Origin: a virus
Reading direction: 5' to 3' (one strand)
Length of the DNA stretch: 20,460 nt
Virus record (IMG/VR): IMGVR_UViG_3300017750_000162
Span: 1-20,460 of that record
A program made the position numbers and the translations under genes. Numbering within the stretch: position 1 is the first letter of the stretch; each line of letters opens with the position of its first letter. The notes under the pieces were generated by a model. It searched no databases and was not told the origin of the DNA. It was given only the letters and a program-made list of their open reading frames with translations. This document shows, piece after piece, positions 1 through 20,242 of the stretch.

Positions 1-43
1 ATATTTTTTGTAGTTTTAGGGGTGTGACATTTGTGCAACCGTC

Positions 44-126
44 GCAACATATAGGGAGACCCCCCAGTTTCCCAATAAAAAACCCCCACTGGGATCAGTG
101 AGGGGTCCAATCTGCAACATTTAGGG
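44..126 (+). repeat. Direct repeat GCAACAT-W-TAGGG, two copies
   Basis: GCAACATATAGGG at 44-56 and GCAACATTTAGGG at 114-126 differ at one base and are exactly 70 bases apart. Each is followed within a few bases by ACCC. Their role is unknown; a protein or phage RNA polymerase binding site is possible. Confidence 0.4.
74..105 (-). terminator. Intrinsic terminator, leftward
   Basis: The minus-strand transcript folds as CCCC, a bulged U, CACTG, loop AUCC, CAGTG, GGGG, followed immediately by UUUUUUAUU. This is a nine-base-pair GC-rich stem with a U-tract, the classic Rho-independent pattern. Read on the plus strand the hairpin is not followed by T residues, so it is directional. Confidence 0.7.
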
Positions 127-174
127 TACCCTATAGGGGTCTGGGAGGATATGGTGTATCTCCCGGCGGGTTAC
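76..174 (-). ncRNA. Candidate phage small RNA, about 99 nt, leftward
   Basis: Reading the minus strand, a sigma70-type promoter (TTGACA at 209-204, 17-base spacer, TATACT at 186-181) predicts a start near 174. Transcription would end at an intrinsic terminator: an arm at 105-96, a 4-base loop, an arm at 91-83, then six U residues from 82 to 77. Between them lies a second hairpin (164-157 with 151-143, one bulge, 5-base loop) and the palindromes at 123-138. No ORF of useful size is present. The RNA carries a CCUCC stretch (minus strand, about 148-144) that could pair with Shine-Dalgarno sequences, but that stretch is inside the first hairpin. All parts are seen directly; that it is a functional RNA is inference. 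Confidence 0.55.
123..138. repeat. Two overlapping 10-base palindromes
   Basis: AGGGTACCCT (123-132) and CCCTATAGGG (129-138) are both perfect 10-base palindromes sharing four bases. They could be an operator for a dimeric regulator or simply part of the folded small RNA, since they lie inside the predicted leftward transcript. Confidence 0.4.
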
Positions 175-180
175 TCCCTG

Positions 181-209
181 AGTATACATGTGGATTTCGC
201 GTTTGTCAA
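181..209 (-). promoter_or_regulatory. Sigma70-type promoter, leftward
   Basis: On the minus strand the -35 hexamer TTGACA (209-204) is a perfect consensus match, the spacer is 17 bases, and the -10 hexamer TATACT (186-181) matches five of six positions. It diverges from the terminase promoter at 292-319 and has no coding gene downstream within the window. Its only visible target is the short unit ending at the terminator near 77-105. Confidence 0.6.
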
Positions 210-291: not shown

Positions 292-319
292 TTGACATAT
301 TGGTTTTAACCACTAGAAT
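292..319 (+). promoter_or_regulatory. Sigma70-type promoter for the terminase operon
   Basis: TTGACA (292-297), a 16-base spacer and TAGAAT (314-319) form a good bacterial housekeeping promoter about 100 bases before the first gene. A start near 326 would give a leader of about 90 nt. The genes downstream are packed without clear gaps, so it could drive the packaging genes and much of the head module. Confidence 0.6.
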
Positions 320-417: not shown

Positions 418-819
418 ATGAATCTGTTACCCCAACAGCGTAAGAAGGTGCCACTCAGCGAGAAACAGGAAAAGTTCCTCGACGAGTTGTTCGACAACGG
501 CGGCAACACGAAGGCTGCAGCCATAGCTGCGGGCTATGCAGAGGGTTCTGCCAAATGGTTGCGCGATAGGTTGTCCGACGAGATCATCGAACGCAGTAAA
601 CACGTCATGGCAGCACACGCAGTAAAGGCCGTTAACCGGATAGTTGCAACAATAGACGATGATGGCAGCGAACCACGCGCCGAAGTGCGTCTACGGGCTG
701 CTGAAGCCCTCCTGAACCGTGTTGGACTCGGAAAACAAGAAACAGTTAACCACAACGTACAGGCAGTACACGGCGTAGTTCTGTTGCCGCCTAAAAAGGA
801 GATACAGATCGATGGATGA
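418..819 (+). CDS. Terminase small subunit
   Basis: This 133-residue protein would recognise the phage DNA and load it onto the large terminase. Residues about 13-41 look like the helix-turn-helix of small terminases: a conserved start (LSEKQEKFLDELF), then NTKAAAIAAGYA and an S-containing turn. A helical middle carries RAEVRLRAAEALLNRVGL, typical of the oligomerising part of this family. The call is supported by its position directly before TerL. The ATG at 418 has only a weak purine-rich site (AAAAGAG) upstream. The 3' end overlaps the next start by eight bases (ATGGATGA), so the next gene is probably translated by coupling. Confidence 0.8.
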   Translation: MNLLPQQRKKVPLSEKQEKFLDELFDNGGNTKAAAIAAGYAEGSAKWLRDRLSDEIIERSKHVMAAHAVKAVNRIVATIDDDGSEPRAEVRLRAAEALLNRVGLGKQETVNHNVQAVHGVVLLPPKKEIQIDG

Positions 820-2729: not shown

Positions 2730-4514
2730 ATGGCAGAACTAGCAGACAAACTACGCAACAAGACTTTAACGGTAGGAGAGGCATTAGATCTTGCTGTTAA
2801 AGATGCTCCTGAATCGCGTATCAAGAATATCAAATCCTTCGGAAACAAACTGAAGAAGTTAGGCATCGAAGATGCTTCTCCGTTTACGTCTATCGGTGAA
2901 GCTGCTAACTTAGAACTTTTAGCCAAAGAAAAAGGTCAGCCTTTTGCTGCATTGACCACTGTTCAAAACGCAATTAACGGTGCTGCTGCTGCTCAAGATA
3001 TAGAAAATCCATTCCCAGACTATTCCGCTAAAGCACAGTCAGCGGGATTAATTGCAGGTAAACAACTGCGTGGCACCAAAAAGTTTGAGGCTGTTCCTGA
3101 AGCTAAAATTACTTTACCAGCCATCGTTGAAACTATCAGCAAAGTTGAAGATCCTCAAACTCGTGCTGCACTATCTCTTAATTCCCTTGTGCCTCTTCGT
3201 CCCGGCGAAATTGCAAATATGACTTTAGACGATATTAACCTTGAAACGGGAATGTTGAAGGAAAAAGTTCGAGGTCAAAAAACACAAGCCAAAATAAAGA
3301 TTCCGGGTGTTGCACTTGAAATCATTAGAGACGCTGCAGAATTAGCAGAACAAGAAGGTAGAACGAATATCTTCGATACAACTGTTAGTAAGATGACAAC
3401 CGCAATCAACGCTCCGGGCGGTTTGCGGGACCAGCTAAAACCATACGCTTCTGAGATGGGGCGTGAAATTCAAGGTGCGGCAGATTTCCGTAAACTTATT
3501 CCATCAATTATTGCTATGGAATTAGGGTACGCGCAAGAAGCAAGTGAGATTATGGGTCACACCTCTGCTAGTCAGACACTAGATTCTGTAGCTAAAATGT
3601 CGTCGGAACATTATGTATCTCGTATTCTCCGTCAAGGAGAAGAAGCACGTCCCACCATTGCTCTACGTGCCTTGCAGAATATGTATGGTGAAGTTTTAGG
3701 TCTTGAAACTCTTAATGAGCTACCTGCTTCCTTAAACGTGTCAGCTAAACGTATCGAACTTAGCAATGAAGCTATTCCGATTGTTCGTGAAGAGGGCGAC
3801 ATTCTTGCTCCAAGTGAACGACGAGAATTGACACCCGAAGAAAAACAACTTATTGAAGACCGCCGTAAACTAGCATCTACTCAAATTGAAGCTCAAACTG
3901 CACAAGCAGGTGCTGACATAGAAGCGGCAGAAACAGCAAGACAACAGGCTATTGTTGAGCGCGGTCCTATCAGTGAAGAAGCCGCTCGTATAAAATCTGA
4001 AGAACAAGAAACTAAAAATCAAGCACGTCGGGATATTCGAGAACAGAAAAAGGTTGAAACCGCCGCCGCTGAAAAACAGGCGCGAGGCGAAACACTAGAT
4101 AGAGGCATAGCAGCTTTTAAAAATGCGTTTGATAAGACCCTCAAAGCTGTAGGAGTTTTGGCTGTTGGAGACGTGGCAGCTAGAACAGTTTCCTCTGCAA
4201 TGGAGGGAAAGTATGGACAGGCAGCGGCGACTGCTGCTGAATTAGCCGTACCTCTTCCTACAGGAGAAATGTACGAAGATATCGCTGATCCTGAAAAGAG
4301 ACAGCTTAGACAAGAACAACAAACAAGATATGGCGAAGGAAAGCCTGTCTTTGGAGAAACAGTGCAGAGAGGTGCACAGAAAGTTCGTGAGCAAGTCGGT
4401 AGACTGTTCAACGAAGAAGAAGACCCAGAAGAGTTGCTTCCGGGAGAAGCCCCCCTCAGAAAGGGTGCTGCATCCGAGATGGAAGACATACTACGGGTCA
4501 ATATTACAAAATAG
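2730..4514 (+). CDS. Large protein with a degenerate tyrosine-recombinase-like domain
   Basis: This 594-residue protein lies between TerL and portal. Residues about 125-300 follow the catalytic-domain layout of tyrosine recombinases: LRPGE with Arg157 and a following DDINLETG; a beta region with Lys184 and Lys187; DFRK with Arg254; MGHTS with His277, 23 residues after Arg254 as in XerD. The expected histidine three residues before Arg254 is Ala251, and the nucleophile position nine after His277 is Ser286; the nearest tyrosine is Tyr295. Residues 365-450 are a charged, likely coiled-coil stretch, followed by an Ala/Val-rich segment (471-510) and a polar tail. It is more AT-rich than its neighbours. 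It may be a DNA-binding virion or packaging protein that reused the fold. An active integrase is less likely but not excluded. Confidence 0.65.
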   Translation: MAELADKLRNKTLTVGEALDLAVKDAPESRIKNIKSFGNKLKKLGIEDASPFTSIGEAANLELLAKEKGQPFAALTTVQNAINGAAAAQDIENPFPDYSAKAQSAGLIAGKQLRGTKKFEAVPEAKITLPAIVETISKVEDPQTRAALSLNSLVPLRPGEIANMTLDDINLETGMLKEKVRGQKTQAKIKIPGVALEIIRDAAELAEQEGRTNIFDTTVSKMTTAINAPGGLRDQLKPYASEMGREIQGAADFRKLIPSIIAMELGYAQEASEIMGHTSASQTLDSVAKMSSEHYVSRILRQGEEARPTIALRALQNMYGEVLGLETLNELPASLNVSAKRIELSNEAIPIVREEGDILAPSERRELTPEEKQLIEDRRKLASTQIEAQTAQAGADIEAAETARQQAIVERGPISEEAARIKSEEQETKNQARRDIREQKKVETAAAEKQARGETLDRGIAAFKNAFDKTLKAVGVLAVGDVAARTVSSAMEGKYGQAAATAAELAVPLPTGEMYEDIADPEKRQLRQEQQTRYGEGKPVFGETVQRGAQKVREQVGRLFNEEEDPEELLPGEAPLRKGAASEMEDILRVNITK

Positions 4515-11065: not shown

Positions 11066-11953
11066 ATGGCAAAAGCAAAAGGCCACCGCGCCAACAAACC
11101 GAATGATTCCTTTGGAACAATCAACAATACAAACCTCTATCGTGGTTCTTACCGTGACGACGTGTACAAGGAAGACGAGGACGAGGAACAGGTAGAAGCC
11201 CAAGAAGCGGACCCCTCTGAGGAGGCTACTCCCGAAGAACAAGGTTTCTCCGACAAAAAATCAGAAGACGTAGACTATAAGAAGCGATACGACGATCTCA
11301 AACGACACTACGATGCAAAGCTATCTGAGTGGAAGGACGAGAAAGCCGAACTCGCCGCACAAGGAGAATCATCTCCTGAACTGGATGCGCTCACACGACT
11401 CAAAGCTCCTAAGAGCCTAGACGAGTTGGAGCAGTTCAAACAGGAGTATCCGGATGTCTACGGTATTGTTGAGACCGTATCTGCCCTGAAAGCGGACAGT
11501 CAGTTGGGAGAACTTCGTAGTGAAGTCGAACAGCTACGTGCCCGTGAACAGGACATGGAAGTACAGAAAGCCTATCAGGAGCTTCTGCGTTATCACGAGG
11601 ACTTTGATGACCTCCGTAACGACGAAAAGTTTCTTGAGTGGCTGGACGAACAACCATCATCTTTGAGCGATGCTATCTATAAGAATAACACCGACGCAAA
11701 GATGGCAGCACGTGTCATCGATCTTTATAAGGCTGACGCTGGTTTGTCAAAGAAGAAGAGAGGTAGACCATCTGCATCTGCCGCAGATTCCGTCACCACA
11801 CGTAAATCTAAAGAGGTTAACGTCAACGGTGATGGTGGGCAGCGTACGTGGAAAGCCTCCGAGATAGGCCGCATGAAACCTCACGAGTTTGAAGCCAACG
11901 AAGCAGAACTCGATAAGGCTCGTGCAGAAGGGCGCATCGACTATAACGCTTAA
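11066..11953 (+). CDS. Capsid scaffolding protein
   Basis: This 295-residue protein is strongly charged and helical, as expected for an internal scaffold that guides coat assembly and then leaves. Residues 36-70 are very acidic, 68-170 are likely coiled coil, and a basic hinge KKKRGRP lies at 229-235. The end (TWKASEIGRMKPHEFEANEAELDKA, cited in part) resembles the conserved C-terminus of scaffolds that bind coat protein. It lies directly before the coat gene. I chose the ATG at 11066 because GGAG at 11054-11057 is correctly spaced; the open frame also has a TTG at 11042 without such a site. Confidence 0.82.
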   Translation: MAKAKGHRANKPNDSFGTINNTNLYRGSYRDDVYKEDEDEEQVEAQEADPSEEATPEEQGFSDKKSEDVDYKKRYDDLKRHYDAKLSEWKDEKAELAAQGESSPELDALTRLKAPKSLDELEQFKQEYPDVYGIVETVSALKADSQLGELRSEVEQLRAREQDMEVQKAYQELLRYHEDFDDLRNDEKFLEWLDEQPSSLSDAIYKNNTDAKMAARVIDLYKADAGLSKKKRGRPSASAADSVTTRKSKEVNVNGDGGQRTWKASEIGRMKPHEFEANEAELDKARAEGRIDYNA

Positions 11954-16437: not shown

Positions 16438-17966
16438 TGCCTGATACTTCAATTATTAGTCCATACGTGGTGAAGTTAGGTGGCGGTCTTATTCTCAACA
16501 GAGATTCATTCTCTATGCCCCCCGGAGCCGCATCAGAGTTAATTAACTTTGAGCCGGACGTTGCAGGTGGCTATCGTCGCATCAACGGTTACGCCAAATA
16601 CAACTCTAACATTGTACCGCAGACGAGTGCCTCGACAGAAAAAGTTCTAGGGGTTGCAGTGTTTAAAAACAAGATCGTTGCTGCTAGAGGAACAAAAGTA
16701 TTTTTTGGTGGTGCTACAGGATCTTGGACAGAGATAGACTCTAGTAGAACAAGTGCTGGTCGTTACGACTTTACAATTTACAATTTTAATAACACAGAAA
16801 AAATAGCGTACGCGGACGGTGTAAACAGAGCTTCTATTTTTGATGGTTCATCTGTTACAGACATCAACGCAACAGGCGCACCGTCTGATCCGGAATCAAT
16901 CGCAGTGTTTAAGAACCACATGTTCTTTGCAGGTATGTCAGCAAACCCTCAAGAGATTGTGTTCTCTGCACCGTTTACTGAGACAAGTTTCTCTACGGCA
17001 AACGGAGCCGGATCCATCAAGGTAGATAGTGCTGTTGTTAAGTTGGTTACTTTTAGGGATTCCCTATTTATATTCTGCGAAGATCAGATACACCAGCTTC
17101 AAGGATCGTCCATCGCAGACTTTGTTCTGAAACCAGTTACTCGTAGGATTGGTTGCGTAGACAGGTTCAGCGTTCAGGAACTTGGCGGTGATATTGTTTA
17201 TCTCGCACCGGATGGTCTTCGCACACTGGCTGGTACAGCTAAAATTGGTGACGTAGAACTCGGAACCGTATCGAAGCAAATTCAGGATAGACTCCTTCTT
17301 CGTAACATTAGCCTAGATAGAATATCTTCTGTCGTTATCCGTAACAAAAGTCAGTACCGAATATTCTTTGCAGCAGATAGCGCGATTGAAGCGTCTGCCC
17401 CCGGAGTTGCCGGAGTGTTGAAACAAACAGATCAGGGCGGCATTGGCTGGGAATACTCTGATCTAAAAGGTATTAAACCGTCATGTTGCGATTCAGGCTT
17501 TGTTAGTAACGTAGAGACAATCGTACACGGAGGCCATGACGGTTACGTCTATCAGCAAGAAACAGGGAACACCTTTGATAGCACAAACATCATAGCTAGG
17601 TTCTCGTCTCCAGATCACAACATGGGCGATGCAGGTATCCGTAAGAATATGCAACGCATCATTTGGAACTATGAGAACGAAGGAAACATCAACACTAAGT
17701 TTCGTATTCGGTATGATTTCTTTTCATCCGACAGTCCGCAACCCTCGCAGTATTCTCTCTTAACAGGAGGTTCTGCTGCTATTTACGGCAACCCCGTCAG
17801 TGCCTACGGAACAGCGGTGTACGGATCATCGGGAGCTCCTCTTGTTCGTCAGACCGTTGAGGGTGGGGGATTTACCGTAGCGGTTCGTGTGGACGATAAT
17901 GGAGGACTGGCTCCGTTCTCTCTAAAAGGATACCAACTAGAATTTACCCCCGGAGGAAGAAGGTAA
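16437..17966 (+). CDS. Tail nozzle / tail tubular protein B-like
   Basis: A 509-residue protein beginning with a conserved stretch (VKLGGGLILNRDSFSMPPG, then LINFEPDVAGGYRRINGY) seen in nozzle or DNA-stabilising proteins of podoviruses. Repeated beta strands through residues 60-420 (for example FKNKIVAARGTKVFF, FKNHMFFAG, FRDSLFIFCED) suggest a propeller-like body, as in the nozzle. It would sit below the adaptor and anchor fibres. Overlap with the adaptor gene implies coupled translation. Confidence 0.72.
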   Translation: MPDTSIISPYVVKLGGGLILNRDSFSMPPGAASELINFEPDVAGGYRRINGYAKYNSNIVPQTSASTEKVLGVAVFKNKIVAARGTKVFFGGATGSWTEIDSSRTSAGRYDFTIYNFNNTEKIAYADGVNRASIFDGSSVTDINATGAPSDPESIAVFKNHMFFAGMSANPQEIVFSAPFTETSFSTANGAGSIKVDSAVVKLVTFRDSLFIFCEDQIHQLQGSSIADFVLKPVTRRIGCVDRFSVQELGGDIVYLAPDGLRTLAGTAKIGDVELGTVSKQIQDRLLLRNISLDRISSVVIRNKSQYRIFFAADSAIEASAPGVAGVLKQTDQGGIGWEYSDLKGIKPSCCDSGFVSNVETIVHGGHDGYVYQQETGNTFDSTNIIARFSSPDHNMGDAGIRKNMQRIIWNYENEGNINTKFRIRYDFFSSDSPQPSQYSLLTGGSAAIYGNPVSAYGTAVYGSSGAPLVRQTVEGGGFTVAVRVDDNGGLAPFSLKGYQLEFTPGGRR

Positions 17967-17969
17967 AAA

Positions 17970-19844
17970 ATGGCAGGATACGCAGCAAGACAATCAACCT
18001 ATGTGGATGGTGACGTTATTGATGCCGCCGATAGTAATGACGAATTTGACGCAATCTTAGCGGCGTTTGGATCTACTAGCGGGCACAACCATGATGGCAC
18101 AGCGGGCGAAGGCTCCCGCATCACTGTTGTTGGAACATCTTCTGACAACGTTACGTTTGGGTCGGCCCTGACACCTGACGCAAACAATACCATAGATATC
18201 GGCACAAGTAGCGCGCAGTTCAAAGACCTATACATCGATGGTACAGCCTATTTGGACGCGATTGATTTCAACGGCACAGCCATCAGTTCAACCGCTGCAG
18301 AACTGAACATCGTAGACGGTAGCACTGCCGCCACCTCTACGACGCTTGCAGATGCTGACCGTGTGGTCGTCAACGACAACGGCACGATGGTGCAGGTTGC
18401 TTTGACTGACTTCGAGACATACTTTGAGTCGGCTCTGGATACGCTGTCTAACGTGACAACCGTCGGTGCCCTCAACGCAGGTTCGATTACCAGCGGGTTC
18501 GGGGCGATTGACAACGGCTCATCCGCTATCACCACTACAGGATTAATTTCTGGTGGTTCATTAGATATTGATGATGTTCTTATCAACGGCACAACTATTG
18601 GTCATACAGATGATACAGACCTTATAACTCTATCTAATGGTGTGGTTACAGTTGCTGGTGAAGTATCTATGACCACTCTAGACATAGGGGGCACAGACGT
18701 TACCTCTACGGCTGCAGAGTTGAACATAATGGACGGGAACACGTCAGCCTCTAGCACTACAGTGGCAGATGCAGACCGTGTGGTGTTTAACGACGATGGC
18801 ACCATGAAGCAGGTAGCAGTCACAGATTTAGCTGCATATTTCGATGATGAAATTACAGCTATGCCAAATCTCGTTACCACTGCAGCTACTACGGTGGGTG
18901 CACTTAACAGCGGTTCTATCACATCAGGGTTTGGTGCAATCGACAACGGATCGTCTGCCATCACTACTACAGGTACGGTTACTTATGGTAGTCTGTCTGA
19001 CGGAAGCATCACAATCACTGCGTTCGTTGACGAAGACGATATGAGCAGTAACAGCGCAACGCTGGTGCCAACACAACAATCTGTCAAAGCGTACGTAGAC
19101 ACACAGATTACTGCTGAAGATCTTGATATCACCACAGACAGCGGAACTATCGCTATCGATCTAGATAGTGAGACTCTGACTGTTGCGGGAGGCACAGGTC
19201 TTGACTCTAGCGCAACTAGTAACACGGTTACTCTAGCTATCGACAGCACCGTTGCAACACTGACAGGCTCCCAATCCCTAACTAACAAAACTCTCGACAT
19301 CGATAATAACACGTTGTCAAATGTTGAAGTGGATAACTTTAAGGCTTCTGCCATTGTTATAGAATCAGAGGGCATTGGATCAAATGACAATGACACGACA
19401 CTGCCAACTAGTGCTGCAGTTAAAGATTATGTAGACACTCAGATTACTGCTGAAGATCTAGATATCACTACAGATAGTGGGACCATTGCTATTGATCTAG
19501 ATAGTGAGACTCTAACTGTTAGTGGCGGAACAGGCATTGACTCTAGCGCAACGGGTAACGCTGTGACGGTGGCTATAGATAGCACAGTTGCTACTCTGGC
19601 AGGATCTCAAACTTTAACTAACAAGACCCTAACAACTCCAATCGTTAACGCCGGACTGCAACTTAAAAACGGATCAACCAGTGCAGGTTTCTTAGAGTTT
19701 TTTGAAGATTCTGACAATGGAACTAACAAAGCAACTCTTATTGGACCTGCCTCCACAGCAGATGTAACTCTTACATTACCCACCGCTACTGGAACTATTG
19801 CAACCACTGATGATGCAACAGCTTTAGCTATCGCTTTGGGTTGA
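17970..19844 (+). CDS. Repeat-built tail fibre protein
   Basis: A 624-residue fibre, poor in Lys/Arg/aromatics and rich in Thr, Ser, Asp, Ala and Gly, probably a trimeric beta shaft. GHNHDG at 38-43 is a histidine motif common near fibre attachment or metal-binding sites. The body is made of duplicated units: STAAELNIxDG modules (near 104-151 and 243-290), GSITSGFGAIDNGSSAITTTG modules (near 165-191 and 309-335), and a long YVDTQITAEDLDITTDSGT module (near 370-442 and 481-554), each ending in TLTNKTL-type sequence for the last. GGAGGAAGAAGG precedes the ATG. No chaperone or enzymatic domain is visible. Confidence 0.8.
   Translation: MAGYAARQSTYVDGDVIDAADSNDEFDAILAAFGSTSGHNHDGTAGEGSRITVVGTSSDNVTFGSALTPDANNTIDIGTSSAQFKDLYIDGTAYLDAIDFNGTAISSTAAELNIVDGSTAATSTTLADADRVVVNDNGTMVQVALTDFETYFESALDTLSNVTTVGALNAGSITSGFGAIDNGSSAITTTGLISGGSLDIDDVLINGTTIGHTDDTDLITLSNGVVTVAGEVSMTTLDIGGTDVTSTAAELNIMDGNTSASSTTVADADRVVFNDDGTMKQVAVTDLAAYFDDEITAMPNLVTTAATTVGALNSGSITSGFGAIDNGSSAITTTGTVTYGSLSDGSITITAFVDEDDMSSNSATLVPTQQSVKAYVDTQITAEDLDITTDSGTIAIDLDSETLTVAGGTGLDSSATSNTVTLAIDSTVATLTGSQSLTNKTLDIDNNTLSNVEVDNFKASAIVIESEGIGSNDNDTTLPTSAAVKDYVDTQITAEDLDITTDSGTIAIDLDSETLTVSGGTGIDSSATGNAVTVAIDSTVATLAGSQTLTNKTLTTPIVNAGLQLKNGSTSAGFLEFFEDSDNGTNKATLIGPASTADVTLTLPTATGTIATTDDATALAIALG
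18278..18975 (+). repeat. Two interleaved duplicated units in the tail fibre gene
   Basis: Unit A is at about 18278-18422 and 18696-18839; unit B at 18459-18542 and 18892-18975. The protein copies are close, while the DNA copies differ mainly at synonymous positions, so the duplication is old and the protein is under constraint. Confidence 0.75.
19078..19630 (+). repeat. Long duplicated unit in the tail fibre gene
   Basis: Copies at about 19078-19297 and 19411-19630, each about 220 bases, encode nearly the same 73 residues. Shared DNA blocks such as CAGATTACTGCTGAAGATCT remain identical, while other codons differ. Confidence 0.78.
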
Positions 19845-19869
19845 CATACAGGCAAAAAGAGTATATAAT
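19841..19869 (+). promoter_or_regulatory. Perfect-consensus sigma70 promoter in the tail module
   Basis: TTGACA (19841-19846), a 17-base spacer and TATAAT (19864-19869) match the bacterial consensus at all 12 positions with the ideal spacing. The -35 box contains the TGA stop of the fibre gene. The ATG of the next gene is 22 bases after the -10 box, with TAGGATT at 19880-19886 as ribosome site. Confidence 0.75.
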
Positions 19870-19891: not shown

Positions 19892-20242
19892 ATGGCTAAT
19901 ACCTTTAAAGTAAAAACAAATGCTGCTATGCCAGCCTCCGCTGGTACGCCTCTGACTCTTTACACGTGCCCCGGCTCGACCACTTCGGTTGTGCTGGGTT
20001 TAATTTTGTGTAACGTAGGCACAGCACAGCACACTGTAGACGTTCAACTAGTGTCTGATACCAGTGACACGGAAACAAACGAAACAGTAAAGCTGCTGGA
20101 AAACGTACCGATACCCGCAGGTTCATCACTAGAGGTGCTGTCAGGTGGCAAGGTCGTAATACAAGCTACAGACGTTATAAAGATTGACGCAGATACGGCG
20201 GCAAAGATTGACGCGACACTGAGCATTATGGAGATCACCTGA
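19892..20242 (+). CDS. Small beta-sandwich structural protein with its own promoter
   Basis: A 116-residue, beta-rich protein: LYTCPGSTTSVVLGLILCN, then VDVQLVSD, LLENVPIPAGSSLEVLSGGK and VIQATDVIKID. Similar small proteins are found beside tail fibres and may cap or join them. Spacing of the strands parallels the 121-residue protein at 15407-15772. It is the first gene after a consensus promoter, and its stop overlaps the next start (TGATG). Function unknown. Confidence 0.6.
   Translation: MANTFKVKTNAAMPASAGTPLTLYTCPGSTTSVVLGLILCNVGTAQHTVDVQLVSDTSDTETNETVKLLENVPIPAGSSLEVLSGGKVVIQATDVIKIDADTAAKIDATLSIMEIT

Follow-up and report, generated by a model that had tools for sequence, protein, structure and literature searches.

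A leftward unit ahead of the terminase genes

The window analysed here (20,460 bases, an IMG/VR record in full) carries the genes for the small (TerS) and large (TerL) terminase subunits, the portal and the major capsid protein, all rightward and in that order. TerS (418–819, plus strand; Pfam PF03592, phrog_51) opens this rightward operon. TerL is ~50–56% identical to its counterparts in Roseobacter, Pelagibacter and Puniceispirillum (HMO-2011) phages, and querying phage records with TerS returned no match; the window phage thus represents a branch without cultured members that is related to the HMO-2011 type. Searches for nucleotide-level relatives of the window among phage records, and for a TerL relative in bacterial genomes as a clue to the host, came back empty. 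Elsewhere in the window, a 594-aa protein encoded between TerL and portal (2730–4514) weakly matches an integrase family (phrog_1, E 1.3e-7) but nothing in Pfam, and a perfect rightward promoter, TTGACA-17-TATAAT (19841–19869), lies directly ahead of a 116-aa gene at 19892.

The leader left of TerS, within which the window breaks off, holds a leftward unit. On the minus strand, a –35 hexamer TTGACA (204–209) is followed after a 17-base spacer by a –10 hexamer TATACT (181–186), the two matching the consensus at 11 of 12 positions, and transcription is predicted to start near 174, ~7 bases past the –10. The predicted start falls in a conserved 5′ element, GGGAGTAACCCGCCGGGAGATACACCATATC (148–178, minus strand), which gives way to a variable, C-rich and G-poor body (105–147, minus strand) and an intrinsic terminator (77–104, minus strand), composed of a hairpin (104–83) and the run TTTTTT (82–77; U6). 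This terminator is the best scorer of the window's terminator scan. All of these promoter and terminator signals, the six T residues included, lie where an initial annotation of the sequence had placed them. The unit faces TTGACA-16-TAGAAT (292–319, plus strand), the divergent promoter that serves the terminase operon.

The initial annotation had also considered the minus strand to be free of protein genes here, and this is borne out: there is no ORF of ≥60 aa at the unit and no gene opposite 76–174, and the short ORFs found at the unit in relatives vary from locus to locus and are not shared. A hidden peptide encoded in the leftward RNA was entertained and rejected, the frame not being shared and measuring 6–30 codons in the five variants with an ATG. 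Likewise, none of the Rfam 15 covariance models matched at its gathering score, and the best weak matches were far below threshold.

Taken alone, the window is a poor judge of such a unit. It contains 22 promoter-like sites, with 23.7 expected by chance and hence no excess, the leftward promoter being among the best four; the predicted RNA fold (–33 kcal/mol, z –1.97) is modestly better than that of shuffled sequences. With promoter matches at chance level and a modest fold, comparative evidence was needed.

Conservation of the unit among relatives

Loci around TerS and TerL were gathered by two protein searches. The leftward unit is present in all but 11 of the 134 loci that include the upstream side of TerS; ten of these exceptions hold <370 nt of upstream sequence, and the remaining one is L154. 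The promoter and the first 30 bases of the RNA are kept in more than 100 related phage contigs. Among 65 non-redundant loci, the –35 sequence TTGAC is invariant (65/65) and the spacer measures 16 or 17 bases throughout (65/65), while the bases within it carry little information. The –10 hexamer drifts at its inner positions (TATACT, TACAAT, TATAAT, TACACT, CATACT, TATCAT, TACCAT and others), with the consensus positions, TAnnnT, kept. A regular expression for the promoter matched 0–5 of the 65 leaders after dinucleotide shuffling, and 1 of 65 when the opposite strand was read. An invariant TTGAC, a –10 that drifts around a preserved consensus, a fixed spacer and low counts in shuffles form the pattern of a selected promoter, and the leftward promoter is very probably under selection. 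A facing plus-strand promoter equivalent to that of the terminase operon was found in 65/65 relatives, in support of the two-way control region originally proposed.

Within the window's clade, mean pairwise identity differs between the parts of the unit, from 100% in the hexamers over 82% in the 5′ element, 76% in the terminator and 68% in the spacer down to 48% in the body. The consensus of the 5′ element, CCYGCCGGG-n-ATAxACCYATA, spans ~30 bases; model R1 matches the window's copy with 25.8 bits (E 3e-6), the window sequence being part of the model by construction. In the shortest relatives, L014 and L012, the body is gone and the RNA consists of 5′ element and terminator only, which marks the RNA body as dispensable.

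Terminators are found in 43/65 relatives, as compared to 6–15/65 in shuffles, and their stems have unrelated sequences in different relatives, with pairing maintained. On the TerL tree, the terminator was lost or gained ~8 times, yet it is present in every member of the window's clade. A clear intrinsic terminator is missing from 22/65 relatives and likewise from the HTVC103P and HTVC033P clades, so a universal function cannot depend on it: what all of this group shares is the promoter and the 5′ element, without the intrinsic terminator. The initial annotation's notion of a self-contained leftward non-coding unit, with a promoter and terminator of its own, thereby gains comparative support; its expectation that otherwise conserved relatives retain both signals holds for the promoter, which is never lost, and fails for the terminator in those 22 relatives. 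For the window phage itself, the production of a discrete RNA is likely.

How far does the unit reach beyond the clade? A similar arrangement precedes TerS in the cultivated pelagiphages HTVC115P, HTVC103P/104P and HTVC033P. In HTVC115P, the same place is occupied by TTGACA-17-TATAAT-ATATATAGACCTGCCGGGAGCATTAACACCTATATC and a strong terminator, the spacing being 16 or 17 depending on the placement of the –10; the promoter recurs, together with a related 5′ sequence, in HTVC103P/104P, HTVC033P and many of their metagenomic relatives. At E 5, a sequence-only model of the 5′ element missed the pelagiphage copies, and homology with these therefore rests on position and motif. The combination of promoter and element was not seen in the roseophages CRP-2, CRP-603 and CRP-212, nor in phiM6. 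A transcriptome study of pelagiphages does not mention HTVC033P, HTVC115P or HTVC103P (PMC12753301), and a non-coding RNA beside the packaging genes of HMO-2011-type phages is undescribed in Rfam and in the literature searched.

Leader copies after the capsid operon and the left flank

The model search also gave second copies of the 5′ element on the opposite strand in at least eight relatives (G002, G003, G005, G009, G021, G023, G029 and G031). These lie ~11.5–13 kb downstream of TerS, just past the terminator of the capsid operon, behind a promoter TTGAC-17-TATAAG (a variant thereof in G009), and each rightward copy is shortly followed by an ATG, with a GGGAG-like stretch where a ribosome site would be expected. 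The resulting module of terminator, promoter, leader and gene (G002, 11749–11772; G003, 17792–17818; G005, 40636 in reverse-complement coordinates) precedes at least four different genes, including a ferredoxin-like (phrog_3704), a DUF6321-like and an MFTAVIIAC-family gene. Of the 56 leftward units that can be aligned, 51 have ATA and 5 have ATG at the start-codon position. With an ATG behind the element in the cassette and ATA in the leftward copy, the leftward RNA looks like the leader of an mRNA from which the gene is missing. A second leader copy is absent from the window. Separately, some relatives (e.g., L019, L148 and L123) carry a small gene, with an MFxA... start and a GPYxTExxC motif, between the plus-strand promoter and TerS; it is missing from the window, and G005 and G031 encode a similar protein behind their post-capsid module.

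To the left of the unit, the window ends inside a conserved A-rich block (1–21, minus strand; CTAAAAnTACAAAAAATATGnCGGGATTGC in relatives), the end of which is cut. Also to the left of the unit, and beyond the end of the window, there is an element with deep conservation, G..GTGGGGTGGCCCTTGCCCGCCC, related to GTGGCCCTTGCCCGCCC. It takes the form GTnC..(G/C tracts)..TGGCCCTTGCCCGCCC at minus 29310 in G006, minus 636 in L155, minus 4322 in L190 and ~40–66 in L188, the tract before it being G-rich in some phages of the window's group and C-rich in others, and is recognisable as a related sequence in CRP-2, CRP-603, CRP-212, HTVC033P and phiM6. Position 1 of the phiM6 record is a pac cut predicted by PhageTerm (PMC6256558). 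Since the phiM6 element lies within ~70 bp of this predicted cut, we take the left element to be a probable packaging-start region. In the CRP phages, the element is present without the leftward promoter.

Several further observations concern this flank. A repeat occurs once inside the RNA (CCCTAAATGTTGC; 114–126, minus strand) and once past the terminator (CCCTATATGTTGC; 44–56, minus strand). Further copies of the repeated motif, CCCnAnnTGTTGC, lie farther left in G004 and G006, with up to five upstream of TerS in G004, and CCCTAACAnGTTCGCGGGAA is found on both sides of the terminator in other relatives; these repeats are possibly protein-binding sites. The IMG/VR contig of L121 (G002), although classed as linear, has two ends that overlap by ~91 bases inside the A-rich, pac-like region, and is thus probably a complete genome of ~54.8 kb. 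A replication origin at the unit was considered on the basis of GC skew and rejected, because the switch lies elsewhere (in G004, at the early divergent region) and tracks gene direction.

Possible roles of the leftward RNA

What might such a unit do? Judged by these sequence comparisons, it is probably a genuine, undescribed, leader-like non-coding RNA of phages, with a regulatory role. It fits the generic kind of an independently transcribed phage small RNA, of an undescribed family, in having a predicted promoter of its own, no conserved reading frame and, in the window and throughout its clade (43/65 in the wider group), an intrinsic terminator of its own. In the mechanism that we propose, a host sigma-70-type polymerase would read the leftward non-coding unit and, in the window phage, give an RNA of ~98 bases ending at the terminator. 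The functional part would most likely be the first 25–30 bases, with CCC-GCC-GGG as a very short hairpin close to the 5′ end and ACACCATA behind it; the remainder would act as spacer and terminator, yielding a discrete RNA and shielding the left conserved element from transcription. In relatives, the 5′ element forms the leader right before the start codon of a post-capsid cassette gene, and the leftward RNA would most likely be a regulatory RNA or a decoy, binding the factor or the pairing partner of such leaders. For this statement as a whole, a non-coding unit acting at the RNA level as regulator or decoy, we put the chances at about even. Weighing against it are the relatives that have no clear intrinsic terminator, the search of the phage for a conserved base-pairing target, which gave none, the pelagiphage link by position and motif, and the absence of a second leader copy from the window, so that a decoy aimed at a sister leader cannot work at that same site here. 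A bolder reading, in which a start-less leader copy divergent from the terminase operon serves as an RNA decoy or as a packaging-linked RNA, appears rather unlikely.

Several features of the unit are reminiscent of known systems. The PR′/6S RNA of phage lambda combines a strong sigma-70-type promoter, a short RNA and an intrinsic terminator near the late genes. The present unit shares the type of promoter, the terminated short RNA and the proximity of late genes; its RNA, in contrast, points away from these, and no leftward gene stands behind it. As the genes left of the unit run rightward, the leftward promoter has no co-directional late genes behind it, in contrast to PR′/6S. Lambda OOP is likewise a short, leftward, terminated RNA adjoining a control region, but is antisense to cII, whereas the RNA described here overlaps no gene. 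The pRNA of phi29 is a non-coding RNA encoded beside packaging functions, a position that the leftward unit shares; unlike pRNA, it lacks conserved secondary structure and has a dispensable body (48% identity, deleted in L014 and L012), and packaging here proceeds via a TerS/TerL terminase. Finally, moron-type cassettes of promoter, gene and terminator resemble the post-capsid modules, in which the same 5′ leader precedes added genes, one of them ferredoxin-like, but the leftward copy is gene-less.

The main rival to a role at the RNA level is an operator at the DNA level, whereby the promoter and a dyad at the start site would form part of the divergent control region, through binding of a repressor or activator or through interference with the terminase promoter, and the RNA would be a by-product removed by the terminator. 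The dyad, directly past the –10, covaries between lineages (GGGC-ATAA-GCCC, AGGA-CTTAC-TCCT, GGACT-CT-AGTCC, CGGAG-TAACAC-CTCCG, GGCAG-TACAC-CTGCC), and its stem reaches at least 4 in 22/37 unique types, whereas exchanging arms among the sequences gives 11.5 such types on average and 18 at most. Since the predicted start comes only after its 5′ arm, the dyad belongs to the DNA rather than to the RNA and may be an operator, in keeping with divergent promoters in 65/65 loci. We nevertheless regard this explanation as possible yet doubtful: the conserved CCGGG-ACACCATA sits within the transcript, its distance to the –10 shifts by 3–4 bases, and terminators are kept or renewed. Alternatively, leftward transcription toward the A-rich and G-rich elements could act in cis, priming replication or opening the probable pac region. 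The deep conservation of the left element and its place within ~70 bp of the predicted pac cut of phiM6 (PMC6256558) would suit such a role, which we nonetheless deem unlikely given the terminator that separates promoter and element in 43/65 relatives and the whole window clade, and a GC-skew switch situated elsewhere, in the early divergent region (G004). The CRP phages, with the element and without the leftward promoter, make it less likely that the RNA has a strict role in cis at this place.

The shared leader itself invites another explanation, namely that a promoter-plus-leader module was copied out of the post-capsid cassette, lost its gene and persists as a slowly decaying relic. The ATG of the cassette copies against the ATA of the leftward ones, and the placement of the module before different genes in different phages, would both be expected from such a history. 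Decay predicts neither promoter hexamers kept across lineages, with TerL down to ~75% identity, nor renewed terminators, and we hold a relic to be very unlikely. Least of all do the data favour the suggestion of the initial annotation that a CCUCC stretch in the RNA masks GGAGG-like ribosome sites in trans. The stretch is present in the window (151–146) but reads CCCCACC in L007 and is missing from L006, L014 and L012, and the pairing energies of the RNA with phage start regions in seven genomes were mostly within the range of shuffled RNA. The few stronger pairings hit different genes, with the exception of portal, which came out on top in the window and in second place in its near relative G006. 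An anti-Shine-Dalgarno role is thus extremely improbable.

HMO-2011-type phages are dominant among the phages of the ocean. Among their cultivated kin with a similar unit, HTVC033P has been ranked among the most abundant pelagiphages (PMC9038755), and since the non-coding RNA unit also occurs in pelagiphages that are in culture, it is open to direct testing. Were it functional, it would give access to the control of late genes or packaging in HMO-2011-type phages, a subject on which the literature searched yielded nothing. Should the reading of the RNA as a decoy or packaging-linked molecule prove true, late-gene or packaging control would be coupled to a factor that binds or otherwise recognises the CCYGCCGGG-ACACC leader, and this in phages some of which rank among the most abundant of the ocean.
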